Shown: one piece after another, positions 26,806-39,532 of the stretch
Position numbering within the stretch: the first letter of the stretch is position 1
Layout: each line of letters opens with the position of its first letter
From: Eubacterium sp. AB3007
Lineage (GTDB): Bacteria; Bacillota; Clostridia; Peptostreptococcales; Anaerovoracaceae
Length of the DNA stretch: 64,000 bases
Direction: 5' to 3'
Assembly (NCBI RefSeq): GCF_000688015.1
Contig: NZ_JIAD01000001.1
Location: 1,922,001 to 1,986,000, forward strand
The notes under the pieces: model-generated
Seen by the model: the letters and a program-made list of their open reading frames with translations, nothing else
Database searches by the model: none
What the model was told of the DNA's origin: nothing
Program-made: the position numbers and the translations under genes

Positions 26806-26943
26806 ACCGTTGCTCCTTGTGGTTTTCAGGTGATTGCTTTTCTTGATTATCGTGGAAAAGGGGGGAGTTGTCAAGGGGAGAGATTTCTCGGGATCGCACA
26901 AAGACTTGCTCCTGAGAGCAGCCTCGTGAGCAGTATGTGCCGT

Positions 26944-27535
26944 CTGTTCCGCGATCCGGGATTTTTCATCAGTTTGCGGAACAGGACAGGGAATTTCTTC
27001 CGCTGAAGTGGAAAAAATTCTGTTTTGCGGGAATCTGTTCCGCGATCCGTTTTTTTCTTCGCTTTGCGGAACAGGACAGGGAATTTCTTCCGCTGAAGTG
27101 GAAAAACCTCTGTTTTGCGGGAATCTGTTCCGCGATCCGGGATTTTTCATCAGTTTGCGGAACAGGACAGGGAATTTCTTCCGCTGAAGTGGAAAAACCT
27201 CTGTTTTGCGGGAATCTGTTCCGCGATCCGGGATTTTTCATCGGTTTGCGGAACAGGACAGGGAATTTCTTCCGCTGAAGTGGAAAAAATTCTGTTTTGC
27301 GGGAATCTGTTCCGCGATATGGTTTTTTTCTTCGCTTTGCGGAACAGGACAGGGAATTTCTTCCGCTGACGTGGAAAAAATTCTGTTTTACGGGAATCTG
27401 TTCCGCGATCCGGGATTTTTCATCGGTTTGCGGAACAGGACAGGGAATTTCTTCCGCTGACGTGGAAAAAATTCTGTTTTGCGGGAATCTGTTCCGCGAT
27501 CCGGGATTTTTCATCAGTTTGCGGAACAGGACAGG
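26944..27535. repeat. 91-bp tandem repeat array (six full copies and one partial)
   Basis: Copies start at 26944, 27035, 27125, 27216, 27307, 27398 and 27489 (partial). Each begins CTGTTCCGC and carries the complementary GCGGAACAG about 23 nt later, so every unit can fold a 9-bp hairpin. A second weaker dyad, TTCCGCTGAAGTGGAA, follows. The loop comes in two versions: GATCCGGGATTTTTCATCRG (copies 1, 3, 4, 6, 7) and a T-rich type (copies 2 and 5). The remainder is nearly invariant. 91 is not a multiple of three and no gene is credible here; there are no unique spacers, so it is not CRISPR. Confidence 0.9.
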
Positions 27536-27797
27536 TTGGGAGGCATCTCCTGCAGAACATAGTTACCGGCTGAATAAGGCTTTGTCTTCAGTCTGAATCC
27601 TGCGGCGTTTACGCTCGCAGGATTTTGATTTCCAGTGCGCCGTAGGTTGAAGCCAAGCCCGCGTCGCCATGCGGCTCGCGCCCTTGGGTAACCCTGACGA
27701 AGGGCCTGCATCGCGCTGCAGCACGTGTTTTACAGCGCGGTAGGTCGTTTCCGATCACACTTCGCGGCGCTTGTGTTCTCGGACGCCCCTCGCGAAT
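27536..27797. other. Gene-free stretch with stable hairpins
   Basis: No convincing gene. AATCCTGCG (27596-27604) pairs perfectly with CGCAGGATT (27616-27624), followed by TTGATTT, a terminator-like end on the plus strand. The rest (27630-27797) is GC-rich with several short dyads (for example GCGCTGCAGC) and could be a structured RNA or decayed sequence. Confidence 0.4.
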
Positions 27798-27855: not shown

Positions 27856-28251
27856 TTATTTTCTCTTCATTTCCTTCGGAGTTACGCAGGTACCGGTAGC
27901 TCTGCAGACAACGATGGGCTCTTCCAGGAAGTCAGCTGCGGAATCGTTGATGTCCTTTCTGGAGACGACGACCTTGCGAGCTTCGAACTTCATCTGACGG
28001 GAAGTGTTTCCGATCTTGGTAATCTCGCCATAAGCCTCGATGTAGTCGCCGGCATAGGTGGGAGCCAGGAACTCAACATTGTCGTATGCGCAGAACAGAC
28101 CCTCGTCTCCGTCCAGTTTGATCAGAAGCTCAGTAGCAACGTCGCCAAACAGGTGGACCATGTGAGCGCCGTCTACCAACTCGCCGCCGTAATGCGCATC
28201 CTTAGCGGACATTCTGACTCTGATTAATGAAGTGATCTTTTCGTTTTCCAT
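27856..28251 (-). CDS. kal: 3-aminobutyryl-CoA ammonia-lyase
   Basis: A 131-residue hotdog-fold enzyme that removes ammonia from L-3-aminobutyryl-CoA to give crotonyl-CoA, a late step of lysine fermentation. It begins [37 protein letters not shown], with the DAHYGG and hotdog-helix pattern typical of Kal. ATG 28251 has AAAGGAGAT upstream; a longer reading adds eight residues without a ribosome site. It is transcribed away from the rest of the island from a divergent promoter region shared with the regulator. Confidence 0.92.
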
Positions 28252-28300
28252 GATAATATCTCCTTTAATATTCAATATAACGTGTCGATGTTACAGTATA

Positions 28301-28329
28301 ATTATAAAACTCGGCGCCTTCGGTGTAAA
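28301..28329 (-). promoter_or_regulatory. Sigma-A promoter of kal
   Basis: On the minus strand: TTTACA (28329-28324), 17-nt spacer, TATAAT (28306-28301). The start would be near 28294, about 43 nt before kal. Confidence 0.7.
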
Positions 28330-28335
28330 TAATAA

Positions 28336-28364
28336 TTGCAAAAATCCGCGAAGTGGTTTATCAT
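28336..28364 (+). promoter_or_regulatory. Probable promoter of the Kdd-like regulator gene
   Basis: TTGCAA (28336-28341), 17-nt spacer, TATCAT (28359-28364), back to back with the kal promoter. The start (about 28371) would be 10 nt before the operator at 28381-28398. Confidence 0.5.
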
Positions 28365-28380
28365 TGACCATAGAAATGGC

Positions 28381-28398
28381 TGAACCGTTTTGTGTTCA
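28381..28398. promoter_or_regulatory. Candidate operator 1 (TGAAC-N8-GTTCA)
   Basis: TGAACCGTTTTGTGTTCA. The reverse complement of the site at 30526-30543 (CGAACCTTTTTGTGTTCA) matches it at 16 of 18 bases. It lies about 95 bp upstream of the kal start point and just downstream of the regulator's own start point, which would fit activation of kal and self-repression. Confidence 0.6.
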
Positions 28399-28421
28399 CC
28401 CGGAAAAGGAGTGAAACAAAA

Positions 28422-30482
28422 ATGAACCGGAGTATGGAATACGATGTCAGGCGTGTGCTGGAGCCGCAGCATGTGCTCCCAGTCTCCGCCTGGAAATTAG
28501 ACAACGGAAGGAAGATCGAGCCTTACGAGGTGCGGATCGAGATCAAGAAGATTCATATCGAAGGGACGAGTTTCAAACAGATCTGTCTGGAAGCGAATGA
28601 CAATGACGATAGGATCCGACAGAAAATCATGGATATCGTGATCCGACGGGGGAAACTGCACAATCCGGTGACGGATACGGGGGGCCTGTTTTACGGTGTG
28701 ATCCGGGAGATCGGAAGCGAGTATAGCAACCAGGACGGGTTCAAGGTGGGCGATGAGGTGGTCTGCAATACGTCCACCACATCCATCCCTGCTTATATCG
28801 ACCGGGTGGGGGCTATCGACCGGGCCTTTGGGCAGGTGGATGCGGAAGGATATGCTATCATTTATGAACGTATCTCAATGGTCAAGGTTAAGGATGACAT
28901 TCCCATCGACCTGATGATGTATGCGTTGAATGAGTCGGGTACATTGCTGAAGATCAGCAGCATCGCCGTCGGAAAGAAAAAGTTTCTGGTGGTGGGGAAC
29001 AACATCCTCATGAACATCATCTATGGGTATGCTATACGAAAGGTGGCCAGAGAGGACTCTGAGATCATCTGCCTGCTTGACAGGAAATCCGATGTACTCT
29101 TTCGGGGGAGTTCTATGGATAAGCTCATGGAGATGGTGTTTACGGAGGTCCGTTCGGTGGATATCCTGAAACCCATGGAGGCTATGGAGGATCTGGAGAA
29201 GCGAATGCCCTTTGATCTATCGGTCAATTGCGCAGATATACCCGGCGCGGAGACCATCAACATCCTGGCCACCAAGGAGGGCGGAACCGTAGTGTTTGCC
29301 AATCTGATCAACAACTACAACATTGCCCTCTATATTACAGAATACATATCCAGGCAGATGGACATTCGGTGTGCGGATGGATATATGGAGAGCTACGAGC
29401 GGTTCGATGAGGACCTGGTGCGAGACATTGCGCCTTACGTGGAGAAGGCGGTGAAGACCACCGTTGGTTTAAATGACGATCCTTCCTATCCCATCAATCG
29501 GGAGTCCAGATTGCGAGAGGTATCCGGGCAGAGGAAGACCATGCTGGAAGACTTTGTCTGTGAGAGCCGGGCCATGGCATCGGTACTGGACGAGATCCTC
29601 ACCGTCTCCAAGTACGATTGCAACGTATTGATCACCGGGGATACCGGCGTGGGCAAGGAGAAGGTGGCCAACATCATCTACAAGAACAGCAGCAGGAAGG
29701 TACAGCCGCTGGTGAAGATCAACTGCGCTTCGATTCTGCCGGACATGATCGAGACCGCCTTTTTCGGTGTGGAGGAGGCAGATGGCCCGCGGAAGGGTTA
29801 TTTTGAGATGGCGGACAACGGCGTGATCTTTCTGGATGACGTAGGCGAATTGAAGATGGATATGCAGGCCAAGCTGCTGCGTGTGATCCAGGACGGAGAG
29901 TTTTATCGGGTGGGGGGCAATGTACCTGTCAAGACAAGTGTCCGTATCCTTTCGGCTACCAACCGGAATCTGGAAGAGATGATCGAAAAGGGAGAATTCC
30001 GTCGGGATCTCTACTACCGCCTGAACGTGGTGGGGATCCGGGTACCAAGTCTAAAGGAACGAACAGGAGATATCCCGGCGTTGGTCGCACACTTCCTGGG
30101 CAAGTATGGAGAGCGTTTCGACATGAAGAGGGATATCGACCGTGACGCGGTGGAATACCTGAAACAGTTTGAGTGGCAGGGCAACATCCGTGAGCTGGAG
30201 AACATGGTCCAGCGGCTGATGATCAGCGCTACATCGGAACACATCACGCTCATAGATGTAATGAAAGAGATACACGGAGATGTGTTCGAGACCAGTGCGT
30301 TGGAGGAGAGTAACCGGAAGAGCGAGGAGCAGGTGATCGATCTGGAGAAGATGGTCCAGAATTTTGAGAAGAACATTCTGCGGCATGCATGCGAGCAGTA
30401 TGGTTCCACCAGGAAGATCGCCCGGGCGGTAGGGATCAGCCAGACACAGCTTGTGCGTAAGAAAAAGAAATACGGTCTTTAG
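28422..30482 (+). CDS. Kdd-like domain fused to AAA+ transcriptional regulator
   Basis: A 686-residue protein. Residues 1 to about 370 align with 3,5-diaminohexanoate dehydrogenase (Kdd, encoded at 30691): NPVTDTGGLFYGVIREIG matches NPWTGSGGMLIGTVEEIG, and FDLSVNCADIPGAETINIL matches CDVVINCVSIENTEMASIL. The Kdd glycine loop GGGGKSG is GNNILMN here, so dehydrogenase activity is probably lost and the domain may sense a lysine-pathway intermediate. An NtrC-type AAA+ domain follows (Walker A GDTGVGKE near 406, Walker B VIFLDDVGEL near 468), but GAFTGA is replaced by EEADGPRKG (near 450-458), arguing against sigma-54 contact. A Fis-like HTH ends the protein (STRKIARAVGISQTQLVRKKKKYGL). It is the probable regulator of the island. 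Confidence 0.85.
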   Translation: MNRSMEYDVRRVLEPQHVLPVSAWKLDNGRKIEPYEVRIEIKKIHIEGTSFKQICLEANDNDDRIRQKIMDIVIRRGKLHNPVTDTGGLFYGVIREIGSEYSNQDGFKVGDEVVCNTSTTSIPAYIDRVGAIDRAFGQVDAEGYAIIYERISMVKVKDDIPIDLMMYALNESGTLLKISSIAVGKKKFLVVGNNILMNIIYGYAIRKVAREDSEIICLLDRKSDVLFRGSSMDKLMEMVFTEVRSVDILKPMEAMEDLEKRMPFDLSVNCADIPGAETINILATKEGGTVVFANLINNYNIALYITEYISRQMDIRCADGYMESYERFDEDLVRDIAPYVEKAVKTTVGLNDDPSYPINRESRLREVSGQRKTMLEDFVCESRAMASVLDEILTVSKYDCNVLITGDTGVGKEKVANIIYKNSSRKVQPLVKINCASILPDMIETAFFGVEEADGPRKGYFEMADNGVIFLDDVGELKMDMQAKLLRVIQDGEFYRVGGNVPVKTSVRILSATNRNLEEMIEKGEFRRDLYYRLNVVGIRVPSLKERTGDIPALVAHFLGKYGERFDMKRDIDRDAVEYLKQFEWQGNIRELENMVQRLMISATSEHITLIDVMKEIHGDVFETSALEESNRKSEEQVIDLEKMVQNFEKNILRHACEQYGSTRKIARAVGISQTQLVRKKKKYGL

Positions 30483-30489
30483 AGACAAG

Positions 30490-30515
30490 AATGCGAACCG
30501 ATATCGGTTCGCATT
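30490..30515. terminator. Perfect palindrome: terminator and possible operator 2
   Basis: AATGCGAACC and GGTTCGCATT flank GATATC as a perfect inverted repeat, 8 nt after the regulator stop. The inner part, CGAACCGATATCGGTTCG (30494-30511), also fits YGAAC-N8-GTTCR. Its centre is 32 bp from that of the next site, about three helical turns. Confidence 0.6.
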
Positions 30516-30525
30516 TGTGCGTTCG

Positions 30526-30543
30526 TGAACACAAAAAGGTTCG
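30526..30543. promoter_or_regulatory. Candidate operator 3 (TGAAC-N8-GTTCG)
   Basis: TGAACACAAAAAGGTTCG. Inverted, it matches the site at 28381-28398 at 16 of 18 bases. Its centre lies about 90 bp upstream of the predicted kdd start point, a usual distance for an upstream activator. Confidence 0.6.
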
Positions 30544-30588
30544 AAAAGGAGATTAGCAAAAGATTCACAATCTCGGCTCGTTTCTTTG

Positions 30589-30617
30589 TGGACACAGAAT
30601 TGTCAGTCAATTATAAT
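30589..30617 (+). promoter_or_regulatory. Sigma-A promoter of kdd
   Basis: TGGACA (30589-30594), 17-nt spacer, consensus TATAAT (30612-30617). No TGGC-N8-TTGC type sigma-54 promoter is visible between the regulator and kdd. Confidence 0.65.
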
Positions 30618-30690
30618 GATATTGTGGCCAAGAGGCCAAAGTGTTGTTTATACTTTTAATACTAAATAAATGATTTAGGAGGATTCAGCA

Positions 30691-31752
30691 ATGAAAAAAG
30701 GAAACCCATATGGAACACACAGAGTCATTTCACCGAAGGGCGTTCTGCCACAGCCAGCAGACGTTATCGATAACGATATGGAGATCTATGACAACGAAGT
30801 TAAGATCAACGTTCAGACTCTGAACATTGACTCCGCTTCCTTCACCGAGATCTGCAAGCAGGTTCTGAACAAGAAGCCGGCTGAGATCGAGACTCAGGAA
30901 GAGAAGGACAAGGTTGCTGAGTGCATGAAGGGCATCGTTGCCAAAGCTGGAAAGCACAAGAACCCTTGGACTGGTTCCGGCGGAATGCTGATCGGTACTG
31001 TTGAGGAAATCGGACCTGAATGGAAGGGAGACCTGAAGGTTGGTGACAAGATCGCTACACTGGTATCTCTGTCCCTGACTCCGCTGGTAATCGACGAGAT
31101 CCTGGAGATGAGACCGGCTATCGACCAGGTTGACATCAAGGGTCACGCAATCCTGTTCCAGAGCGGCATCTATGCAAAGCTGCCTGATGACATGGAAGAT
31201 GGACTGGCTCTGTCCGCACTGGACGTTGCAGGAGCTCCGGCTCAGGCTGCTAAGCTGTGCCAGCTTGGCCAGACTGTACTGGTTATCGGTGGCGGCGGAA
31301 AGTCCGGACTGCTGTGCCTGTACGAAGCTAAGAAGAGAGTTGGCGTTACTGGTAAGGTTATCTGCGCTGCAGGATCCCAGAAATCCGAAGACAGAGCTCG
31401 CAACCTGGATCTGGCTGACGAGTACTTCCACATCGACGCTACCGATGCAGTTGGAATGTACGAGAAGATTATGGAGCTGACCAACGGCGAACTGTGCGAC
31501 GTAGTTATCAACTGCGTAAGCATCGAGAACACTGAGATGGCTTCCATCCTGTCCTGCAAGGACGACGGAACCGTTTACTTCTTCTCCATGGCTACCAGCT
31601 TCACCAAGGCTGCTCTGGGAGCAGAGGGTGTTGGCAAAGACGTTAACATGATCATTGGTAACGGATACACCAAGGGCCACGCAGACGTTACTCTGCAGGT
31701 TCTGAGAGAGCACGAAGGCCTGAGAAAGCTCTTCCAGGAGATGTATGCATAA
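30691..31752 (+). CDS. kdd: L-erythro-3,5-diaminohexanoate dehydrogenase
   Basis: A 353-residue NAD-dependent enzyme that oxidatively deaminates 3,5-diaminohexanoate to 5-amino-3-oxohexanoate, third stage of lysine fermentation. It begins KKGNPYGTHRVISPKGVLPQPA, characteristic of Kdd. The dinucleotide loop VIGGGGKSGLL is near 198-208. Favoured codons and a strong AGGAGG site suggest high expression. It is first of the long kam transcript, with two hairpins between it and kamA. Confidence 0.95.
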   Translation: MKKGNPYGTHRVISPKGVLPQPADVIDNDMEIYDNEVKINVQTLNIDSASFTEICKQVLNKKPAEIETQEEKDKVAECMKGIVAKAGKHKNPWTGSGGMLIGTVEEIGPEWKGDLKVGDKIATLVSLSLTPLVIDEILEMRPAIDQVDIKGHAILFQSGIYAKLPDDMEDGLALSALDVAGAPAQAAKLCQLGQTVLVIGGGGKSGLLCLYEAKKRVGVTGKVICAAGSQKSEDRARNLDLADEYFHIDATDAVGMYEKIMELTNGELCDVVINCVSIENTEMASILSCKDDGTVYFFSMATSFTKAALGAEGVGKDVNMIIGNGYTKGHADVTLQVLREHEGLRKLFQEMYA

Positions 31753-31910: not shown

Positions 31911-33170
31911 ATGGCTATCAGAAATTGGAAAGACATCCCTCTGTTCAAGGACGTTACCGATGAACAGTGGAACGACTGGCATTGGCAGGTCGCACATAGA
32001 CTGTCCACAACAGAGGAGATCGCACAGGTTATCAACCTGACACCAGAAGAGAGAGAAGAGATCGACAAGGTCATCGGCGGATTCAGAGTCGGCATCACCC
32101 CGTACTACGCTTCCCTGATGGATCCTGATGATCCAAGATGTCCGATCAGAATGCAGGCTGTGCCGACCCTGAAGGAGATGCACAGATCTGAGGCAGATGA
32201 CGCTGATCCGCTGCACGAGGATGCAGACTCCCCGGCTCCAGGACTGACCCACAGATATCCGGACAGAGTCCTCTTCCTGATTACTGACCAGTGTTCCATG
32301 TACTGCCGTCACTGCACCAGAAGAAGACTGGCCGGTGAGACAGATGGTGCAAGATCCAGAGAAGACATCGATGCATGTATCGAGTACATCCGCAAGACCC
32401 CGCAGGTCAGAGACGTCCTGCTGTCCGGCGGAGATGCTCTGTGCGTTGAGGATGATACCCTGGAGTACATCATCAGCGAGCTGAGAAAGATCGATCACGT
32501 GGAGATCGTAAGACTGGGCTCCAGAACACCTGTGGTTATGCCGCAGAGAATCACCGATGATCTGGTCAACATGCTGAAGAAGTATCATCCGATCTGGCTG
32601 AACACACACTTCAATCACCCGAAGGAAATGACTCCGACCGCTATGGAAGCTCTGCGCAAGCTGGCTGACGCCGGTATCCCTCTGGGCAACCAGTCCGTAC
32701 TGCTGAGAGGCGTCAACGACTGCAAGCACATCATGAGAGAGCTGGTACACGAGCTGGTCAAGAACAGAGTTCGTCCGTACTACATCTACATCTGCGACCT
32801 GTCCGTAGGTATCGAGCACTTCAGAACCTCCGTGGCTAAGGGCGTTGAGATCATCGAGGGCCTGAGAGGCCACACCTCCGGTTACTGCGTACCGACCTTT
32901 GTGGTCGATGCTCCGGGAGGCGGCGGAAAGACTCCGGTACAGCCGCAGTATGTGATCTCCGAGACACCGGACAAGGTGATCCTGAGAAACTACGAAGGCG
33001 TTATCACTACTTACACCCAGCCGAGACTGCCGGATCTTCCGTGCACCTGCGACTACTGCACAGGCAAGAAGACCTACAAGTATCAGGGTGTGTCCGCTCT
33101 GGGCGAGGGACTCCAGATCAAATCCATGGAGCCTTCCAACCTGGCAAGACACGAGAGAAACAAGCACTAA
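31911..33170 (+). CDS. kamA: L-lysine 2,3-aminomutase
   Basis: A 419-residue radical-SAM, PLP-dependent enzyme that turns L-lysine into L-beta-lysine, the first committed step. The [4Fe-4S] motif is C128-S-M-Y-C-R-H-C135, preceded by PDRVLFLITDQ. SGGDAL and the PLP-lysine region (VVDAPGGGGKTPV) follow, and a C-terminal Zn-type cysteine pair (CTCDYC) is present. ATG 31911 follows AAGGAG. Length and motifs match the clostridial enzyme. Confidence 0.97.
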   Translation: MAIRNWKDIPLFKDVTDEQWNDWHWQVAHRLSTTEEIAQVINLTPEEREEIDKVIGGFRVGITPYYASLMDPDDPRCPIRMQAVPTLKEMHRSEADDADPLHEDADSPAPGLTHRYPDRVLFLITDQCSMYCRHCTRRRLAGETDGARSREDIDACIEYIRKTPQVRDVLLSGGDALCVEDDTLEYIISELRKIDHVEIVRLGSRTPVVMPQRITDDLVNMLKKYHPIWLNTHFNHPKEMTPTAMEALRKLADAGIPLGNQSVLLRGVNDCKHIMRELVHELVKNRVRPYYIYICDLSVGIEHFRTSVAKGVEIIEGLRGHTSGYCVPTFVVDAPGGGGKTPVQPQYVISETPDKVILRNYEGVITTYTQPRLPDLPCTCDYCTGKKTYKYQGVSALGEGLQIKSMEPSNLARHERNKH

Positions 33171-33258
33171 TTCAGAAGGCTCACAAGGCCGCCTGAAAAG
33201 AAAGATTTTGGGGAGGCGACGGTCTCCCCTATATCGCTTAAAGGAAGTAATATAATTT

Positions 33259-34281
33259 ATGGGCTTACTATACGATCTGTCAACCAAATACAAGACTTTG
33301 TCCATCGTCGGCATGTCGAAGAACGCCGGCAAGACCACGGCGCTGAACTACCTCATCGAGGAAGCAGACGACGAGGGTCTTCTCCTGGGGATCACATCCA
33401 CCGGGCGGGACGGCGAGACATCGGATTTGGTGACGGGGACAGAGAAGCCGAAGGTCTTTCTCTATGAGGACACCATCGTGTCGGTACCCACGCAGCTGTT
33501 TGAGTTTGCAGAGGGCGGCCTGGAGATTCTGGAGAAGACCGGAATTCGCACACCGATCGGGGAGTTGATGCTCTGCCGGGTAGCGGACAGCGGCTACGTA
33601 CAGATCGCAGGGCCAGTGGCGACGGTAGATTCCAAGCGGATGTGCCAGCGGATGATGGAACTGGGCACGGAGCTCATCCTCATCGACGGCGCCATCGACC
33701 GGAAGTCCATAGCTTCGCCGGAGACCTCGGATGCGGTGATCCTCTCCAGCGGCGCGGTGCTCTCCCGCAACATGCAGAAGATGGTGGCGGAGACAGCGCA
33801 CGTGGTGGGGCTGTATAACCTCCCGGAGCTGGAGGAATGCGAAGCCAGAGACCTCATCCAGGAGGCGCGGAAGGAGAAAGAACGGGTCATGATGGTGGAT
33901 CGGGATGGCAGTCTGCGGGTACTGGATTTGGCCACAGGGCTGGGTGCCAGCACCAGGATCGACGAAGCCATCACCGAGGAGACAGAGTTCGTCTATGTAC
34001 CCGGTGCCTTCACCAGCAGCGTGATTTCCGGCATCCAGAAACCGAAACTGAAACAAGTCCGCTTCGTCCTGAAGGATCCCACCCGGATCTTTTTCGGATC
34101 AGCAGAGTGGAAACAGTGGGGGAAACGAGGGCTTGCTGTCAGCGTCCTGAAGAACATCGTGATTGCGGCGGTGACCGTCAATCCGTATTCCCCCAGCGGA
34201 TATTCCTTTGAGCACAAAGCCCTGCGGGACACGATGCAGGAGGCGCTTCCGGATATTCCGGTCATCGATGTGAGACTGTAG
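33259..34281 (+). CDS. kamB: Lysine 5,6-aminomutase reactivase subunit KamB
   Basis: A 340-residue P-loop protein with the motif VGMSKNAGKTT near residues 17-27. It is always found with KamC in lysine-fermenting clusters. The pair is thought to reactivate the B12-dependent mutase KamDE by exchanging damaged cofactor, which is inference from family annotation. A second notable stretch is LILIDGAIDRKS. The gene lies 88 nt after kamA, with a short hairpin-rich spacer, and 19 nt before kamC. Confidence 0.9.
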   Translation: MGLLYDLSTKYKTLSIVGMSKNAGKTTALNYLIEEADDEGLLLGITSTGRDGETSDLVTGTEKPKVFLYEDTIVSVPTQLFEFAEGGLEILEKTGIRTPIGELMLCRVADSGYVQIAGPVATVDSKRMCQRMMELGTELILIDGAIDRKSIASPETSDAVILSSGAVLSRNMQKMVAETAHVVGLYNLPELEECEARDLIQEARKEKERVMMVDRDGSLRVLDLATGLGASTRIDEAITEETEFVYVPGAFTSSVISGIQKPKLKQVRFVLKDPTRIFFGSAEWKQWGKRGLAVSVLKNIVIAAVTVNPYSPSGYSFEHKALRDTMQEALPDIPVIDVRL

Positions 34282-34300
34282 AGAACAATTGGGGGAGAAG

Positions 34301-35944
34301 ATGAAACAAGGTTCTAACAGAAGGCTTGCCAATGTGAAGACGAGAACAGAGACCGGATTTGACTATGTCAAGTCCATGATGGATCTGAACACGCCTTTCG
34401 GCAAGACACAACTGAAGGAAGCCGCGCCTTACTTCCCCGGGGAAGAGGAGGAACTGCGTCAGGAACTGGACCGGATCCAGTATATGGTGGAGTTCGTCCG
34501 CGCAGACGGACGTCTGGTGGGGAAATTGCAGGAGACCTTCATGATGATGAAGGATATCTCTTTCTCGCTGGCGCGCAGTCAGAAGGACACCCTGTCCGTG
34601 GTGGAACTGTTCGAGGTCAAGTCCCTGTTGCTGGAGATGCGGCAGGTGAGCACGCTTTGTGCGGGGTCGGAGAAGCCGGTGCCGGAGGAGTACATTCTGG
34701 AGGACACCACTGACATCCTGGACGAGCTGGATCCCCGGAAGGACAGACTGAACACCTTCTACATCTACGATGACTTTTCGGAGACGCTTGCACAGCTGCG
34801 GAAACGTAAACATGCTTGCGAGGTGGCGATCCGCAAGGCTCAGAAGAAAAGAAAAGAACAGATCAGGCAGGAGTATGGGATCGTGCTGACGCCCAAGTTC
34901 GACGTGATCATTCCCAAGAATGGGCCGGAACTTGAGAAGGCCAGGGAGATTGAGGATCTGGAGCAGATCGGCGAGGACTACAATTCCGTCACCTTCGAGC
35001 TGCAGAAGACCGAGGCGGTCTACGAGCATGCGAAGGAGATGGACGAGGTAATCGCCCTCATCGAAGATGAGGAACTTCGGATTCGGGGGATCCTGTCGAA
35101 GAAGGTGGCAGCGGCCAGCGAGAAGATGATGCGTAACTGCGACCGCATCGGCGCACTGGATCTGGCACTTGCCAAGGCCATCTATGCGGATAAGCATCAC
35201 TGTGTCCGGCCGGAGATCTGTGAAGAACATGTGATAGAGTTTGAGAACGGAAGAAATCTTCAGGTGGAGGATATCCTCCACTCCAAGGGGAAAGAGTACT
35301 GCCCTGTTAGTCTGAAGCTGGCGGACGGGGTCACGTGCATCACCGGCGCCAACATGGGTGGAAAGACGGTGAGCCTCAAGCTGGCTGGGATGATTCCTAT
35401 CCTGGCACAGTACGGGTTCTTTGTCCCCGCTGATAACGCAAGGATCGGTCTGTCTAACTACATGCAGATCCTGATCGGCGACAGCCAGTCGGTAGAGCGC
35501 GGATTGTCCAGCTTCGGGAGTGAGATGGAAGAACTGAAAGAGATCATCGATCGCAGCCAGGACAGATCGCTGTTCCTGATCGATGAGATCGCCAGCGGCA
35601 CCAATCCCGTGGAAGGGCTGGCTCTTACCAAGAGCATCATCGATTTTCTGAAAGGGAAGACCTTCATCACTCTGATGACCACTCATTTTGATGCGGTCAC
35701 CGAAGAGAAGGATGTGGTCAATATGCAGGTCCGGGGTCTGGCCGATGCCAATTTCCGGAAGCTGGACAGCGAACTGCATCTGGCCAACAGAAGAGAAAGG
35801 ATCAACATCATCTCCAAATACATGGATTACAGACTGTATACCGTGACGGAGAACAGAGAGATCCCCAAGGATGCCCTGAACATAGCTAAAATGCTCGGCC
35901 TTAATGACGAGATCATCGAGGGAGCCAAGAAATATCTTAAATAA
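34301..35944 (+). CDS. kamC: Lysine 5,6-aminomutase reactivase ATPase KamC (MutS-like)
   Basis: A 547-residue protein whose C-terminal half is a MutS-type ATPase: Walker A CITGANMGGKTVSLK (near 347-361), LSSFGSEMEEL, Walker B FLIDEIASGTNP (near 423) and TLMTTHFD. No mismatch-recognition domain is present. The N-terminal half is coiled-coil-rich (QEYGIVLTPKFDVI). GGGGGAG lies only 4 nt before ATG 34301, and an alternative TTG at 34289 is possible. It works with KamB on KamDE. Confidence 0.9.
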   Translation: MKQGSNRRLANVKTRTETGFDYVKSMMDLNTPFGKTQLKEAAPYFPGEEEELRQELDRIQYMVEFVRADGRLVGKLQETFMMMKDISFSLARSQKDTLSVVELFEVKSLLLEMRQVSTLCAGSEKPVPEEYILEDTTDILDELDPRKDRLNTFYIYDDFSETLAQLRKRKHACEVAIRKAQKKRKEQIRQEYGIVLTPKFDVIIPKNGPELEKAREIEDLEQIGEDYNSVTFELQKTEAVYEHAKEMDEVIALIEDEELRIRGILSKKVAAASEKMMRNCDRIGALDLALAKAIYADKHHCVRPEICEEHVIEFENGRNLQVEDILHSKGKEYCPVSLKLADGVTCITGANMGGKTVSLKLAGMIPILAQYGFFVPADNARIGLSNYMQILIGDSQSVERGLSSFGSEMEELKEIIDRSQDRSLFLIDEIASGTNPVEGLALTKSIIDFLKGKTFITLMTTHFDAVTEEKDVVNMQVRGLADANFRKLDSELHLANRRERINIISKYMDYRLYTVTENREIPKDALNIAKMLGLNDEIIEGAKKYLK

Positions 35945-35959
35945 CAAGGAGAGAGCAGG

Positions 35960-37516
35960 ATGAAAAGCAAACTTAACATCGATCCTAAGATGGTTGCCAG
36001 CGCGCGTCAGCACGCTGCAAACATCGCTAAGGACATGCAGGAGTTCATCGATGCACATACTACGGTAAGTACAGAGAGAACGATTCTGCGACTGCTGGGA
36101 GTTGATGGCATCGATGATGTCGAAACACCGCTTCCCAATGTCGTGGTAGAGCAGATCCAGGCAGCTGGTGGCCTCCCGAGAGGAACCGCTTACTGGATGG
36201 GCAACGCCATGATCCAGACAGGTCTGAATCCGCAGGAAATCGCGGAGAAGATGGCTGCCGGCGAGTTGGAGATCACCAAGCTGCCGACTGCTCCTGTAGA
36301 GGAAGCGAAGGAGGCGATCATGCCGCTGGTGCATGAGTCCCTCAAGAAAATCCGTCAGCAGACCAAGAAAAGAGAAGAATATCTTGCTACCATCGGAGAG
36401 GGTGACAAGCCCTATCTGTATGTAATCGTAGCTACCGGTAACATCTACGAGGATGTGGTTCAGGCGAAGGCCGCTGCCAGACAGGGTGCGGACATCATCG
36501 CCGTCATCAGAACCACCGCGCAGTCCCTGCTGGACTACGTACCTTATGGACCGACCACAGAAGGATTTGGTGGTACTTACGCTACCCAAGAGAACTTCCG
36601 CATCATGAGAAAGGCCTTGGACGAGGTAGGCGAGGAAGTTGGCAGATACATCCGTCTGTGCAACTACTCCTCCGGCATGTGCATGCCTGAGATCGCTGCA
36701 ATGGGCGCGCTGGAGAGACTGGACGTCATGCTGAATGATGCTATCTACGGCATCCTGTTCAGAGACATCAACATGCAGAGAACCATCGTCGACCAGTATA
36801 TGAGCCGTGTCATCATCGGTTACTGCGGCATCATCTTCAACTCCGGCGAGGATAACTACCTGACTACAGATGATGCTTACGAAGCAGCCCACACCGTGAC
36901 CGCTTCCCAGTTCATCAACGAGCAGTTCGCTGTTCTGGCCAACATTCAGGAGTGGCAGATGGGTCTGGGACACGCCTTTGAGATGGATCCTGCCATGGAA
37001 GACGGATTCCTGTATGAACTTGCTCAGGCACAGATGGCCAAGGAAATCTTCCCCAACGCCAGCCTGAAGTACATGCCGCCGACCAAGTTCATGACCGGAA
37101 ACATTTTCCGCGGACACATCCAGGATGCGTTGTTCAACCTGGTCGCCATCTGGACCGGACAGTCCCTGCAGTTGCTGGGAATGCTGACCGAGGCGATCCT
37201 CACACCGCATATGCACGACAGATATCTGTCCATTGAGAATGCACAGTACATCTTCAACAACGCGAAACACATCGGTGACGAAGTCGAATTCAAGAAAGAC
37301 GGAATCATCCAGAAGAGAGCACAGCTCGTTCTTGAGAAAGCAGACGCACTGCTGGCAGAGATCGAGAAGGATGGCCTGTTCTCAACGATCGAGCAGGGCA
37401 AGTTCGGAGGAGTCAAGAGACCTAAGGATGGTGGACACGGTCTGGAAGGCGTCTGCACAAAGGACGATCAGTACTTCAACCCATTCATCCCACTGATGAA
37501 AGAAGGTGCAGAATAA
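35960..37516 (+). CDS. kamD: Lysine 5,6-aminomutase alpha subunit
   Basis: A 518-residue TIM-barrel subunit that binds PLP and adenosylcobalamin at the interface with KamE and moves the epsilon-amino group of lysine or beta-lysine to C5. It begins KSKLNIDPKMVASARQHAANIAKDMQ, as in the clostridial enzyme. Typical stretches are RTTAQSLLDYVPYGPTTEGFGGT and LCNYSSGMCMPEIAAMGALERLD. Its stop overlaps the kamE start by one base. No B12 riboswitch is seen upstream. Confidence 0.96.
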   Translation: MKSKLNIDPKMVASARQHAANIAKDMQEFIDAHTTVSTERTILRLLGVDGIDDVETPLPNVVVEQIQAAGGLPRGTAYWMGNAMIQTGLNPQEIAEKMAAGELEITKLPTAPVEEAKEAIMPLVHESLKKIRQQTKKREEYLATIGEGDKPYLYVIVATGNIYEDVVQAKAAARQGADIIAVIRTTAQSLLDYVPYGPTTEGFGGTYATQENFRIMRKALDEVGEEVGRYIRLCNYSSGMCMPEIAAMGALERLDVMLNDAIYGILFRDINMQRTIVDQYMSRVIIGYCGIIFNSGEDNYLTTDDAYEAAHTVTASQFINEQFAVLANIQEWQMGLGHAFEMDPAMEDGFLYELAQAQMAKEIFPNASLKYMPPTKFMTGNIFRGHIQDALFNLVAIWTGQSLQLLGMLTEAILTPHMHDRYLSIENAQYIFNNAKHIGDEVEFKKDGIIQKRAQLVLEKADALLAEIEKDGLFSTIEQGKFGGVKRPKDGGHGLEGVCTKDDQYFNPFIPLMKEGAE

Positions 37517-38316
37517 TGGCAGATAAGAATTGCGCAACAGCAGTCGCTCAGGTCGATCTGACCAAGGTTAAGCCTTACGGCGATACGCTCAACGATGGAT
37601 ATATGGAAATGGCATTCACTCTTCCCGTTCCTTACGGTGAGGAAGCGGAGGAGGCCGCCAAGCAGTATGTTACCAAGATGGGCATCGAGGAACCGAACGT
37701 CACCTATTACCATGAGCTTTGTCCGGGATACACCTTCTTCGTGGTCTATGGAAAGTGTGTCCACACCGTGGACTACACTTCCATCAAGGTCAAGAAGGTA
37801 GATGTCGAGGTGCTGGACAGAGTGGAGTGCGGTAACTGGATTGCCGAGAACGTCGGCAGAGACATCGTCGTCGTCGGCGCATCCATCGAGTCCGACGCCC
37901 ACACCGTAGGCATCGATGCTATCATCCAGATGAAGGGCTTCCACGGCCACTTCGGTCTGGAGAGATTCAAGAACGTGGTCGCTTACAACATGGGTTCCCA
38001 GGTTCCCTGCGAGCAGCTGCTGGCCAAAGCCAGAGAAGTGAACGCAGACGCGATCCTGGTTTCCCAGACTGTTACCCAGAAGGACATCCATATCAAGCAG
38101 CTCACACAGATGATCGAGCTGGTGGAAGCAGAGGGTCTGAGAGACAAGCTCATCTGCACCTGTGGCGGTCCGCGTATCTCCCACGAGCTGGCACAGGAGC
38201 TGGGTTACGACGCAGGTTTCGGCCCTGGCAAGTATGCTGAGCACGTCATGAGTTACATCATGGAGGAAGTGGTCAAGAAGGGTTGGCAGGATAAGCCGAA
38301 CATCGAGGACCGCTAG
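37516..38316 (+). CDS. kamE: Lysine 5,6-aminomutase beta subunit
   Basis: A 266-residue cobalamin-binding subunit. The B12 motif D127-A-H129-T-V-G132 (GASIESDAHTVGID) and the nearby NMGSQVPCEQLLAKA match the Rossmann-like domain that holds the cofactor base-off. The N-terminal dimerisation part precedes it. It is coupled to kamD. A hairpin at 38341-38376 probably marks the end of the kam transcript. Confidence 0.96.
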   Translation: MADKNCATAVAQVDLTKVKPYGDTLNDGYMEMAFTLPVPYGEEAEEAAKQYVTKMGIEEPNVTYYHELCPGYTFFVVYGKCVHTVDYTSIKVKKVDVEVLDRVECGNWIAENVGRDIVVVGASIESDAHTVGIDAIIQMKGFHGHFGLERFKNVVAYNMGSQVPCEQLLAKAREVNADAILVSQTVTQKDIHIKQLTQMIELVEAEGLRDKLICTCGGPRISHELAQELGYDAGFGPGKYAEHVMSYIMEEVVKKGWQDKPNIEDR

Positions 38317-38493: not shown

Positions 38494-39472
38494 ATGTTCA
38501 GAAAGATATCGAACGGATGCGTCCACCTGGTGAATCGGTTCTTACCGGATCTCTTCATCTTCTGCATCATCCTGACGGTCATCGTATTCCTGGCGGCCAT
38601 GCCGGCCACCGGTTCAGGTCCCATCGACATTGTCAACGCATGGGGCGAGGGCGCCTGGAATCTGTTGGCCTTCTCCATGCAGATGGCACTGGTGCTTGTG
38701 CTGGGCAGTGCTCTGGCTAACGCCCCTGCCGTGAAGAGGCTGATCGCCCGGATCGCATCCATCGCTAAGAGTCCTGTTCAGGGAATCGTAGTCGTGACCT
38801 TCTTCTCCCTGATCGCATGCTGGGTCAACTGGGGCTTCGGTCTGGTTGTAGGTGCGATCCTGGCCAAGGAGATTGCCAGACAGGTCAAGGGCATCGACTA
38901 CCGTCTGCTGATCGCATCTGCCTATTCAGGCTTTGTGATCTGGCATGCGGGATTTTCAGGATCCATCCCTCGATCATCGCGCTGGCGGGCCTGGTCTATC
39001 TGGTCTACTATTTCATCACAGCAGGATTCAACCTGTCCCTGAACATCGTCAACTTCATCTTCCTGATCCTGGGGATCATTTTCCACAAGACCCCGATCAG
39101 TTACGTGAGGGCGGTGCAGGAGGCATCTGGTGGAGCCGCAGGGATCATCCTGCAGTTCCCCTTCTACGCAGGGATCATGGGAATGATGGTGTTCGCACCG
39201 GAAGGTAGTACATCCCTGGCGGCGGCCAGTGGTTAGTGCAAGGCCCAATCATGATGCCGGCCGGACTTCATCTGGGCGTATCCCCGGCTATCACCGGAAT
39301 GGCGATCGCATGGGGCGATGCCTGGACCAATATGATCCAGCCATTCTGGGCATTGCCTGCTCTGGGAATCGCAGGGCTCTCCGCAAGGGACATCATGGGC
39401 TACTGCCTGATCACCCTGTTCTTTGTGGGTATCGTTGTTTGTGGAGGATTCATCATTGTTGGCATGCTGTAA
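38494..39472 (+). pseudogene. atoE: Short-chain fatty acid transporter AtoE, decayed
   Basis: Homology to AtoE (normally about 440 residues) runs in three frames. Frame 1 (38494 to about 38970) ends after AYSGFVIWHAGFSGSIP. Frame 2 resumes at SIIALAGLVYLVYYFITAGFN, missing about 85 residues compared with E. coli AtoE, and runs to YAGIMGMMVFAPEG (about 39205). Frame 3 carries PGGGQWLVQGPIMMPAG through ARDIMGYC to 39472, with a further loss of roughly 35 residues. Two internal deletions plus frame changes make a sequencing slip unlikely. The gene would have imported or exported acetoacetate or butyrate. Confidence 0.85.
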
Positions 39473-39532
39473 CAGCAGAGAGGATCCTTGCATATATATG
39501 TAAGTTAATTTATTAAAAGAAAGGTGATTAAT

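Follow-up and report, generated by a model that had tools for sequence, protein, structure and literature searches.

The window, a stretch of 64,000 nucleotides, contains a lysine fermentation operon in which a regulator gene lies between a divergent kal and a run of kdd, kamA, kamB, kamC, kamD and kamE, in that order. These genes are placed as follows:

27856..28251, reverse strand: kal, 3-aminobutyryl-CoA ammonia lyase, with its ATG at 28251
28422..30482, forward strand: regulator gene, 686 residues, Kdd-like domain plus AAA+ plus HTH
30691..31752, forward strand: kdd, L-erythro-3,5-diaminohexanoate dehydrogenase
31911..38316, forward strand: kamA, kamB, kamC, kamD and kamE

The kdd start is 208 bp past the regulator's stop codon, matching the 200 bp or so given in a first-pass annotation. 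After kamE come what we take to be a permease-like gene and then CoA-transferase genes; the permease-like gene (38494-39516) consists of overlapping open reading frames in different frames, as if shifted or broken. The gap before kal holds a tandem array (26943-27535; 91-bp unit, 6.5 copies, 93% matches).

The regulator gene comprises these features:

28422..29450, forward strand: Kdd-like putative sensor domain, residues 1-343
28662..28685, forward strand: NPVTDTGG block common to Kdd (NPxTxxGG), residues 81-88
28995..29015, forward strand: former dinucleotide loop, GNNILMN versus GGGGKSG in Kdd, residues 192-198
29340..29342, forward strand: Glu307 codon, aligned with Glu310 of solved Kdd
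29559..30038, forward strand: AAA+ domain (Sigma54_activat), residues 380-539
29757..29807, forward strand: L1 loop region without GAFTGA, AFFGVEEADGPRKGYFE
30054..30281, forward strand: AAA lid (AAA_lid_14), residues 545-620
30339..30479, forward strand: TyrR-type HTH (HTH_50), residues 640-686

Alignments and profile models confirm the predicted architecture, a Kdd-fold sensor half joined to AAA+ and HTH. By BLASTP, the N-terminal part is 26% identical to the kdd product over 346 residues (132 bits, E 4e-38). The NCBIfam Kdd model NF052381 (Lys_ferment_KDD; 178 positions) matches residues 9-174 (E 9e-38) at 129.9 bits, below the 200-bit cut-off of this enzyme model. The solved Kdd structure 7dl3 aligns over residues 5-335 (E 2e-22), and this comparison supports a Kdd fold. 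The first-pass annotation had extended the resemblance to Kdd over some 370 residues: the alignment itself stands, and its extent does not, as the match stops near residue 343 (alignments 2-343 and 1-335). The NPxTxxGG and VNC/INC blocks that it had named are both in the alignment, and so is the replacement of GGGGKSG by GNNILMN. Its description of the C-terminal part as an AAA+ ATPase without GAFTGA, plus an HTH, also agrees with the domain matches (HTH_50 scores 49.4 bits against a cut-off of 27): in the L1 loop, GAFTGA is deleted, not varied. Walker A, Walker B (here LDD) and the R-finger are all found in the Sigma54_activat domain, within the retained motifs GDTGVGKE, GVIFLDD and FRRDLYYRL. 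The NCBIfam TyrR equivalog reaches 237.9 bits, under its cut-off of 576, and matches residues 359-686 only; the N-terminal portion of that model is presumably ACT/PAS.

A profile scan of genome contigs yielded 207 candidate loci encoding a relative, of which the best 80 were used; they include Aminicella lysinilytica, Hornefia butyriciproducens, Eubacterium minutum and Emergencia timonensis, along with Eubacterium infirmum, Sinanaerobacter and Anaerovorax records. We take their family to be Anaerovoracaceae, a name that one homologue match bears. Among 80 regulators of at least 450 residues (from 78 of the best 80 loci), kdd follows immediately on the same strand in 69, kal is divergent in 69, and both arrangements occur together in 62 and at least one of them in 76. 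Regulators of 450 residues or less (L110, L136) were left out; at L136:9989-12032 the regulator is split across two adjacent open reading frames. Many loci, L038, L045 and L062 among them, carry two tandem kdd copies after the regulator. The Kdd model matched in 24/291 genomes of a class sample, 82/398 of a phylum sample and 184/349 of a family sample. Six of the 24 class genomes hold eight regulator-length open reading frames (686-731 residues), each with a Kdd in the genome; in the phylum sample, such a frame was found only in the window's genome and one other (G742). Of 60 extra kdd loci from the family, seven are without a long regulator frame (some are cut by contig ends), and collapsing regulators with the same last 400 residues left 21 new ones.

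In a quick tree, all 36 regulator N-domains are separated from 52 Kdd rows by one branch (SH-aLRT 100), with the root unplaced since the sole outgroup row was too long-branched. The window's Kdd clusters with other Kdds and not with the regulator, which means that the regulator did not arise as a copy of the kdd beside it. The first-pass proposal that the regulator arose by duplication of the enzyme thus fails for the local gene: a recent duplication is not supported, and on these data the fusion would be both old and single. Basal regulators retain a GAxx[KR]xG loop where the window's group has GNNxxxN. Filtering the best 120 of 624 homologues by length and Walker A left 32; every one of these has a GAFTGA-like loop, and GAxx[KR]xG is recognised in 29 of them. 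Loss of the dinucleotide loop appears confined to the derived regulator group, and the earlier claim of its loss therefore holds for the window's group but not for the basal members.

The N, P, T, G and G of the NPxTxxGG block are identical in 36/36 aligned regulators; positions fixed or nearly fixed in Kdd and regulators alike include, together with this block, Glu36, Gly77-Lys78, Asp265, Glu277 and Gly288. In Kdd, according to a review, Glu310 hydrogen-bonds the NADPH amide and Gly323 lies 3.8 Å from the same amide (PMC9902596, in the part consulted). The first position is Glu in 35/36 regulators, so the domain may still bind a cofactor, and the second is Gly in 34/36. In the window regulator, however, Kdd residues that are the same in 52/52 Kdd rows are replaced: Gly203, Lys204 and Gly206 by Ile, Leu and Asn, and His330 by Tyr. 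Catalysis has probably been lost. The nicotinamide/substrate end of the pocket seems to be kept and the phosphate loop gone in the derived group, which makes a pathway metabolite the likeliest ligand; our best guess is L-erythro-3,5-diaminohexanoate, on which Kdd acts, or the keto compound that Kdd makes from it, either alone or together with a nicotinamide cofactor.

We then aligned 109 distinct regulators, the window's included: the G[AST][FY][TS]GA loop is present in 85 and absent in 24 (the GTFTGA of L039 was counted as intact). To score sigma-54 promoters, we compared TGGCACG-N4-TTGCW with the 300 nt preceding kdd and kal and kept the best match, with a threshold of 9/12 (GG and GC required) that was set after seeing the scores and is reached by about 5% of 400-nt shuffles. 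A site precedes kdd in 73/75 loop-bearing and 0/20 loopless loci (Fisher p 1e-18), and kal in 61/68 and 0/23, respectively (Fisher p 1e-15; both values uncorrected for kinship). All nine exceptions go one way: the loop is kept and the site is missing. Gene starts in the other loci were picked by a script rule, and some single misses may be start errors, possibly including the kdd of L114, which is without a site that its near-twin L115 has; the kdd start of L087 was set by hand and still has no site. Neither the window's kdd nor its kal has a -24/-12 promoter, and a sigma-54 scan of the window gave nothing above chance; this, with the deleted loop, leaves the first-pass view of a regulator acting without sigma-54 undisturbed. 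The whole genome has eight TGGCAYNNNNNTTGCW sites, compared with 4 for a reversed control, and none of them is in the window. What looks like the remnant of a former promoter is found upstream of kal:

28336..28354, reverse strand: kal sigma-54 promoter remnant, -12 element kept, -24 element unrecognisable

Its sequence is ACTTCGCGGATTTTTGCAATTATTATTTACA, compared with ATTGGCACATATTTTGCAATTATTATTTACA in Emergencia timonensis.

On a regulator tree from which the loop columns were left out, five changes are required to account for the loopless state, of which at least four are forced by well-supported branches, and a single origin is rejected (AU p 0.0011; 40-row tree, no mixture model). In phylogenetically independent pairs, loss of the kdd site accompanies loss of the loop in 4/4 (154/200 pairings), and that of the kal site mostly in 2-3/4, never in the opposite direction; with only 4-5 such pairs a sign test has no way of reaching 0.05 (its median p is 0.125 at kdd and 0.25 at kal). 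We considered loss of rpoN as the cause of promoter loss and rejected it: rpoN is in 25/25 genomes checked (15 loopless from all five clades and 10 loop-bearing), so sigma-54 is still encoded. The family appears to be ancestrally one of sigma-54 activators, with the loop lost in the window's clade. A plausible intermediate is the loop-bearing clade adjoining the window's (L074, L075, L078 and L080; joint branch support 83), which supplies four of the seven kal exceptions: the kal sigma-54 site is gone in all four members and the kdd site is kept in three, while the sigma-A promoter found at kal is accompanied by an operator at -96. In the Emergencia group, kal has a dual promoter in which sigma-54 and sigma-A elements overlap.

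Word counts upstream of kdd and kal pointed to a shared DNA element: TCGGTTCA/TGAACCGA occurs in 69/143 loop-bearing regions (1.3 expected) and 25/43 loopless regions (0.8 expected). The full dyad is TGAACC-N6-GGTTCA; the TyrR box has the same 6-6-6 layout with different half-sites. The window's predicted operators and promoters are:

28301..28329, reverse strand: kal sigma-A promoter, TTTACA-N17-TATAAT, 11/12
28336..28364, forward strand: possible regulator promoter, TTGCAA-N17-TATCAT, 9/12, no better than chance
28381..28398, reverse strand: predicted operator O1, TGAACACAAAACGGTTCA, between kal and the regulator, at about -96 for kal
30494..30511, no strand assigned: predicted distal operator O2, CGAACCGATATCGGTTCG, centre -122.5 for kdd
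30526..30543, forward strand: predicted proximal operator O3, TGAACACAAAAAGGTTCG, centre -90.5 for kdd
30589..30617, forward strand: kdd sigma-A promoter, TGGACA-N17-TATAAT, 11/12

O1 is just downstream of the regulator's own predicted promoter. Searching with YGAACM-N6-GGTTCR at up to one mismatch, we found an operator at kdd in 18/20 loopless and 57/75 loop-bearing loci, and at kal in 23/23 and 47/68; controls gave 10/1860 shuffles and 3/360 regions upstream of kamA-E and atoD. The pattern was derived from these loci, so that its presence here is partly by construction, while its absence elsewhere is not. Across the 2.3-Mb genome, the strict operator YGAACMNNWNNNGGTTCR occurs in three places only, all in the two intergenic regions described here, and the reversed pattern has 0 occurrences; at two mismatches the genome search was too loose to use. 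The distal kdd operator (30494-30511 in the window, and in relatives) can fold as a terminator-like hairpin in 4/14 loopless and 9/46 loop-bearing loci, and may be one element serving both ends.

A general scan of 28230-30720 for sigma-70-type promoters gave 7 matches, versus 3.3 (sd 2.0) in shuffles, and the two best are those of kdd and kal. A sigma-A promoter of at least 10 precedes kdd in 19/20 loopless and 5/75 loop-bearing loci, and kal in 17/23 and 17/68 (shuffles about 4-6%); the six loopless kal regions without one all belong to clade C. Transcription starts were taken as 7 nt after the -10 box. On this basis the centre of the proximal kdd operator falls between -90.5 and -92.5 in 19/20 loopless loci of all five clades at up to two mismatches (17/20 near -91 at up to one; L154 has none), and a second operator, where present, is 31-32 nt further upstream. 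In loop-bearing loci, by contrast, the proximal operator ranges from -64.5 to -206.5 relative to the sigma-54 start (sd 29; 56 loci), here at up to one mismatch, so the two distributions differ in stringency. Among loci that have an operator, a sigma-A promoter of at least 9.5 stands at the -91 offset in 19/19 of the loopless and 0/65 of the loop-bearing ones, although two of the latter (L062 and L137) score 9, just below the value used. Inheritance of the kdd sigma-A promoter from loop-bearing ancestors was rejected on this count, the dual promoter at kal in the Emergencia group notwithstanding. At other offsets in loopless loci, the sigma-A mean is 2.9%, with one or more high values of up to 74% that presumably reflect the second operator. 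Measured from the sigma-54 start, 40/41 operator sites at kal fall at -64; relative to the sigma-A start, the operator lies at -90 to -102 in the 17 loopless loci for which a promoter was scored. Both groups have a fixed spacing at kal, perhaps since the divergent promoter shares its DNA.

What has been computed here is a set of domains, a predicted fold, the co-loss of loop and promoters, operator and promoter patterns, and their spacing. From these we infer DNA binding, activation, autoregulation and a ligand, and we consider it probable that the window's protein is a one-component regulator of lysine fermentation: ligand-controlled, formerly sigma-54-dependent, and now activating the sigma-A promoters of kdd and kal. 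Its Kdd-fold domain, probably without catalysis, would sense a pathway metabolite, and the AAA+ protein would bind TGAACC-N6-GGTTCA operators through its TyrR-type HTH, in the intergenic DNA both between kal and the regulator and between the regulator and kdd. Ancestral regulators would have relied on GAFTGA for the remodelling of sigma-54 RNA polymerase at both genes. The window's clade and, independently on the tree, four others have neither the loop nor the sigma-54 promoters any more; there the regulator most likely activates sigma-A promoters from fixed positions, near -91 and -122 at kdd and near -96 at kal, and limits its own expression through O1. Action at sigma-A promoters, as the first-pass annotation proposed, is supported by the two 11/12 promoters, the missing sigma-54 sites and the predicted operators at fixed positions. 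The fixed spacing in five clades, set against the free kdd spacing of the sigma-54 relatives, is what contact activation versus enhancer action predicts.

Could the protein instead be mainly a repressor at sigma-A promoters that is released by a lysine metabolite, like TyrR of E. coli? Such a role would suit O1, which occupies a repressing position just downstream of the regulator's possible promoter, and TyrR usually represses sigma-70 promoters (PMC1173090, in the part consulted). We nevertheless judge it unlikely: the sites at -91 and -122 (kdd) and near -96 (kal) are clear of the promoter, and steric repression from upstream would not need a position that varies by only about 2 nt over five clades. 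Moreover, regulators working with sigma-54 must activate, and so must the ancestors of this one have done. There is a very small chance that the N-domain is still an enzyme, in the manner of a trigger enzyme that oxidises diaminohexanoate while regulating transcription; the conserved N-P-T-GG block, the Glu310 and Gly323 positions and the GAxx[KR]xG loop of basal members are compatible with this idea, while the Ile/Leu/Asn and Tyr substitutions at invariant Kdd positions of the window regulator speak against it.

That the protein still depends on sigma-54, by way of an altered loop and of promoters that escaped recognition, is even less credible. The genome does have rpoN and a loop-bearing paralogue, and variants such as GSFTGA are held to be functional in Clostridiales (PMC6615313, in its main text); yet the window's loop is deleted outright, no loopless kdd or kal region has a -24/-12 site, none of the genome's eight TGGCAYNNNNNTTGCW sites is in the window, and both genes have 11/12 sigma-A promoters. 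Least probable of all, to the point of being negligible, is that the loopless regulators are in decay and have lost any regulatory role. AAA motifs do drift in some of them (Walker B is LDD or LNE, and the R-finger changes), but their HTH is close to that of loop-bearing relatives, operators are more, not less, frequent in their loci, 24 long open frames persist, and spacing is fixed. Under the activator reading that we prefer, the same drift suggests that ATPase activity may be dispensable in loopless regulators.

Extending this activator reading to the whole family, we lean, less firmly, towards a history in which a sigma-54 activator acquired a metabolic enzyme as its sensor on a single occasion and was then converted in place, on the same genes, four or five times, from distance-tolerant to fixed-position sigma-A action, always with a site centre about -91 from the kdd start. 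If true, the family would offer a natural experiment on the change of sigma-factor class, run in replicate, whose intermediates survive: the clade adjoining the window's, in which the loop is kept and the kal sigma-54 site lost, and the Emergencia group with its overlapping kal promoters.

The closest precedent is TyrR of enteric bacteria and its sigma-54 relative PhhR (PMC1173090, in the part consulted). TyrR and the window regulator have in common an NtrC-type AAA+ domain with GAFTGA lost or disrupted, sigma-70 promoters (predicted ones in the window), a TyrR-type HTH and a loop-bearing close relative still on sigma-54. According to the same paper, TyrR was recruited from catabolic to biosynthetic genes, whereas here the neighbouring putative target genes are unchanged. 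Unlike TyrR, the window regulator has a Kdd-derived sensor, and in its family the loop has been lost about five times, with a visible change at both promoters. The NtrC proteins of Rhodobacter capsulatus and Caulobacter likewise have an L1 loop deletion and use sigma-70 promoters, with a phosphorylated receiver and a role in nitrogen control where the window regulator has a Kdd domain (PMC10274813, in the part consulted). OrdR, PrdR, LeuR and other sigma-54 activators of Clostridiales resemble it in being tied to amino-acid fermentation operons; the survey describing them counted exact GAFTGA in 355 of 490 activators and variants in 100, and neither a Kdd-type domain, nor a lysine operon (Table 1), nor the word lysine appears in its main text (PMC6615313). 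The consulted parts of three lysine pathway papers (PMC3149608, PMC4697335, PMC12316311) make no mention of a Kdd-AAA+-HTH regulator.

Our literature search, which covered mostly open-access papers and their main texts, found no described regulator of this build, as the first-pass annotation had suspected. TyrR, for its part, responds to aromatic amino acids through ACT and PAS domains. From Kdd itself (PDB 7dl0, 7dl1, 7dl3, 7dl7) the window regulator differs in falling below the NCBIfam cut-off, in its changed dinucleotide loop and in being joined to AAA+/HTH. We regard it as a type of bacterial enhancer-binding protein whose sensor is new and whose family appears to have changed sigma class repeatedly; within the literature searched, a catabolic dehydrogenase fold was not found as the sensory domain of an NtrC-type protein. 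The Kdd-fold sensor predicts a ligand class for a regulator of lysine fermentation to butyrate, in gut and other anaerobes. Sigma-54 needs ATP-driven remodelling and tolerates distance; sigma-A needs contact from fixed positions. Previous accounts of moves from sigma-54 to sigma-A, in the sources as consulted, concern single families, such as PhhR/TyrR and NtrC. Here, a single operon appears to have undergone the move several times, and each lineage still shows the state of the loop, of the two promoters and of the operator spacing; the sequence of steps and the requirement for AAA+ thereby become directly testable.

The paralogue in the same genome (C1, about 20.4 kb; L004:8402-10522) is a second Kdd-AAA+-HTH regulator, 33% identical to the window's and with GAFTGA intact; a sigma-54 scan around it gave no site above chance. 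It lies ~6 kb upstream of kce, a pairing similar to that in L039 (kce 5.5 kb downstream); kce of L004 is part of what is presumably a murB-rapZ-whiA block, separate from the kam operon. Two other loci, L131 (Anaerovorax odorimutans) and L132, have two tandem regulators beside KamA-like and CoA-transferase genes, with neither kdd nor kal within the stretch examined; perhaps a different aminomutase pathway is under the same kind of regulator there. A protein of 721 residues (P0157) has Kdd-type domains and PF12094 in place of AAA+/HTH, and is either another fusion or an assembly artefact. Finally, L004:10500-10740 contains a ~100-bp element with 'ttgcaacc..cgcttcgcaggcttgcgctcttgggcaaccctgac' twice in a row, and something resembling it, by eye, is present at 27640-27740 of the window.
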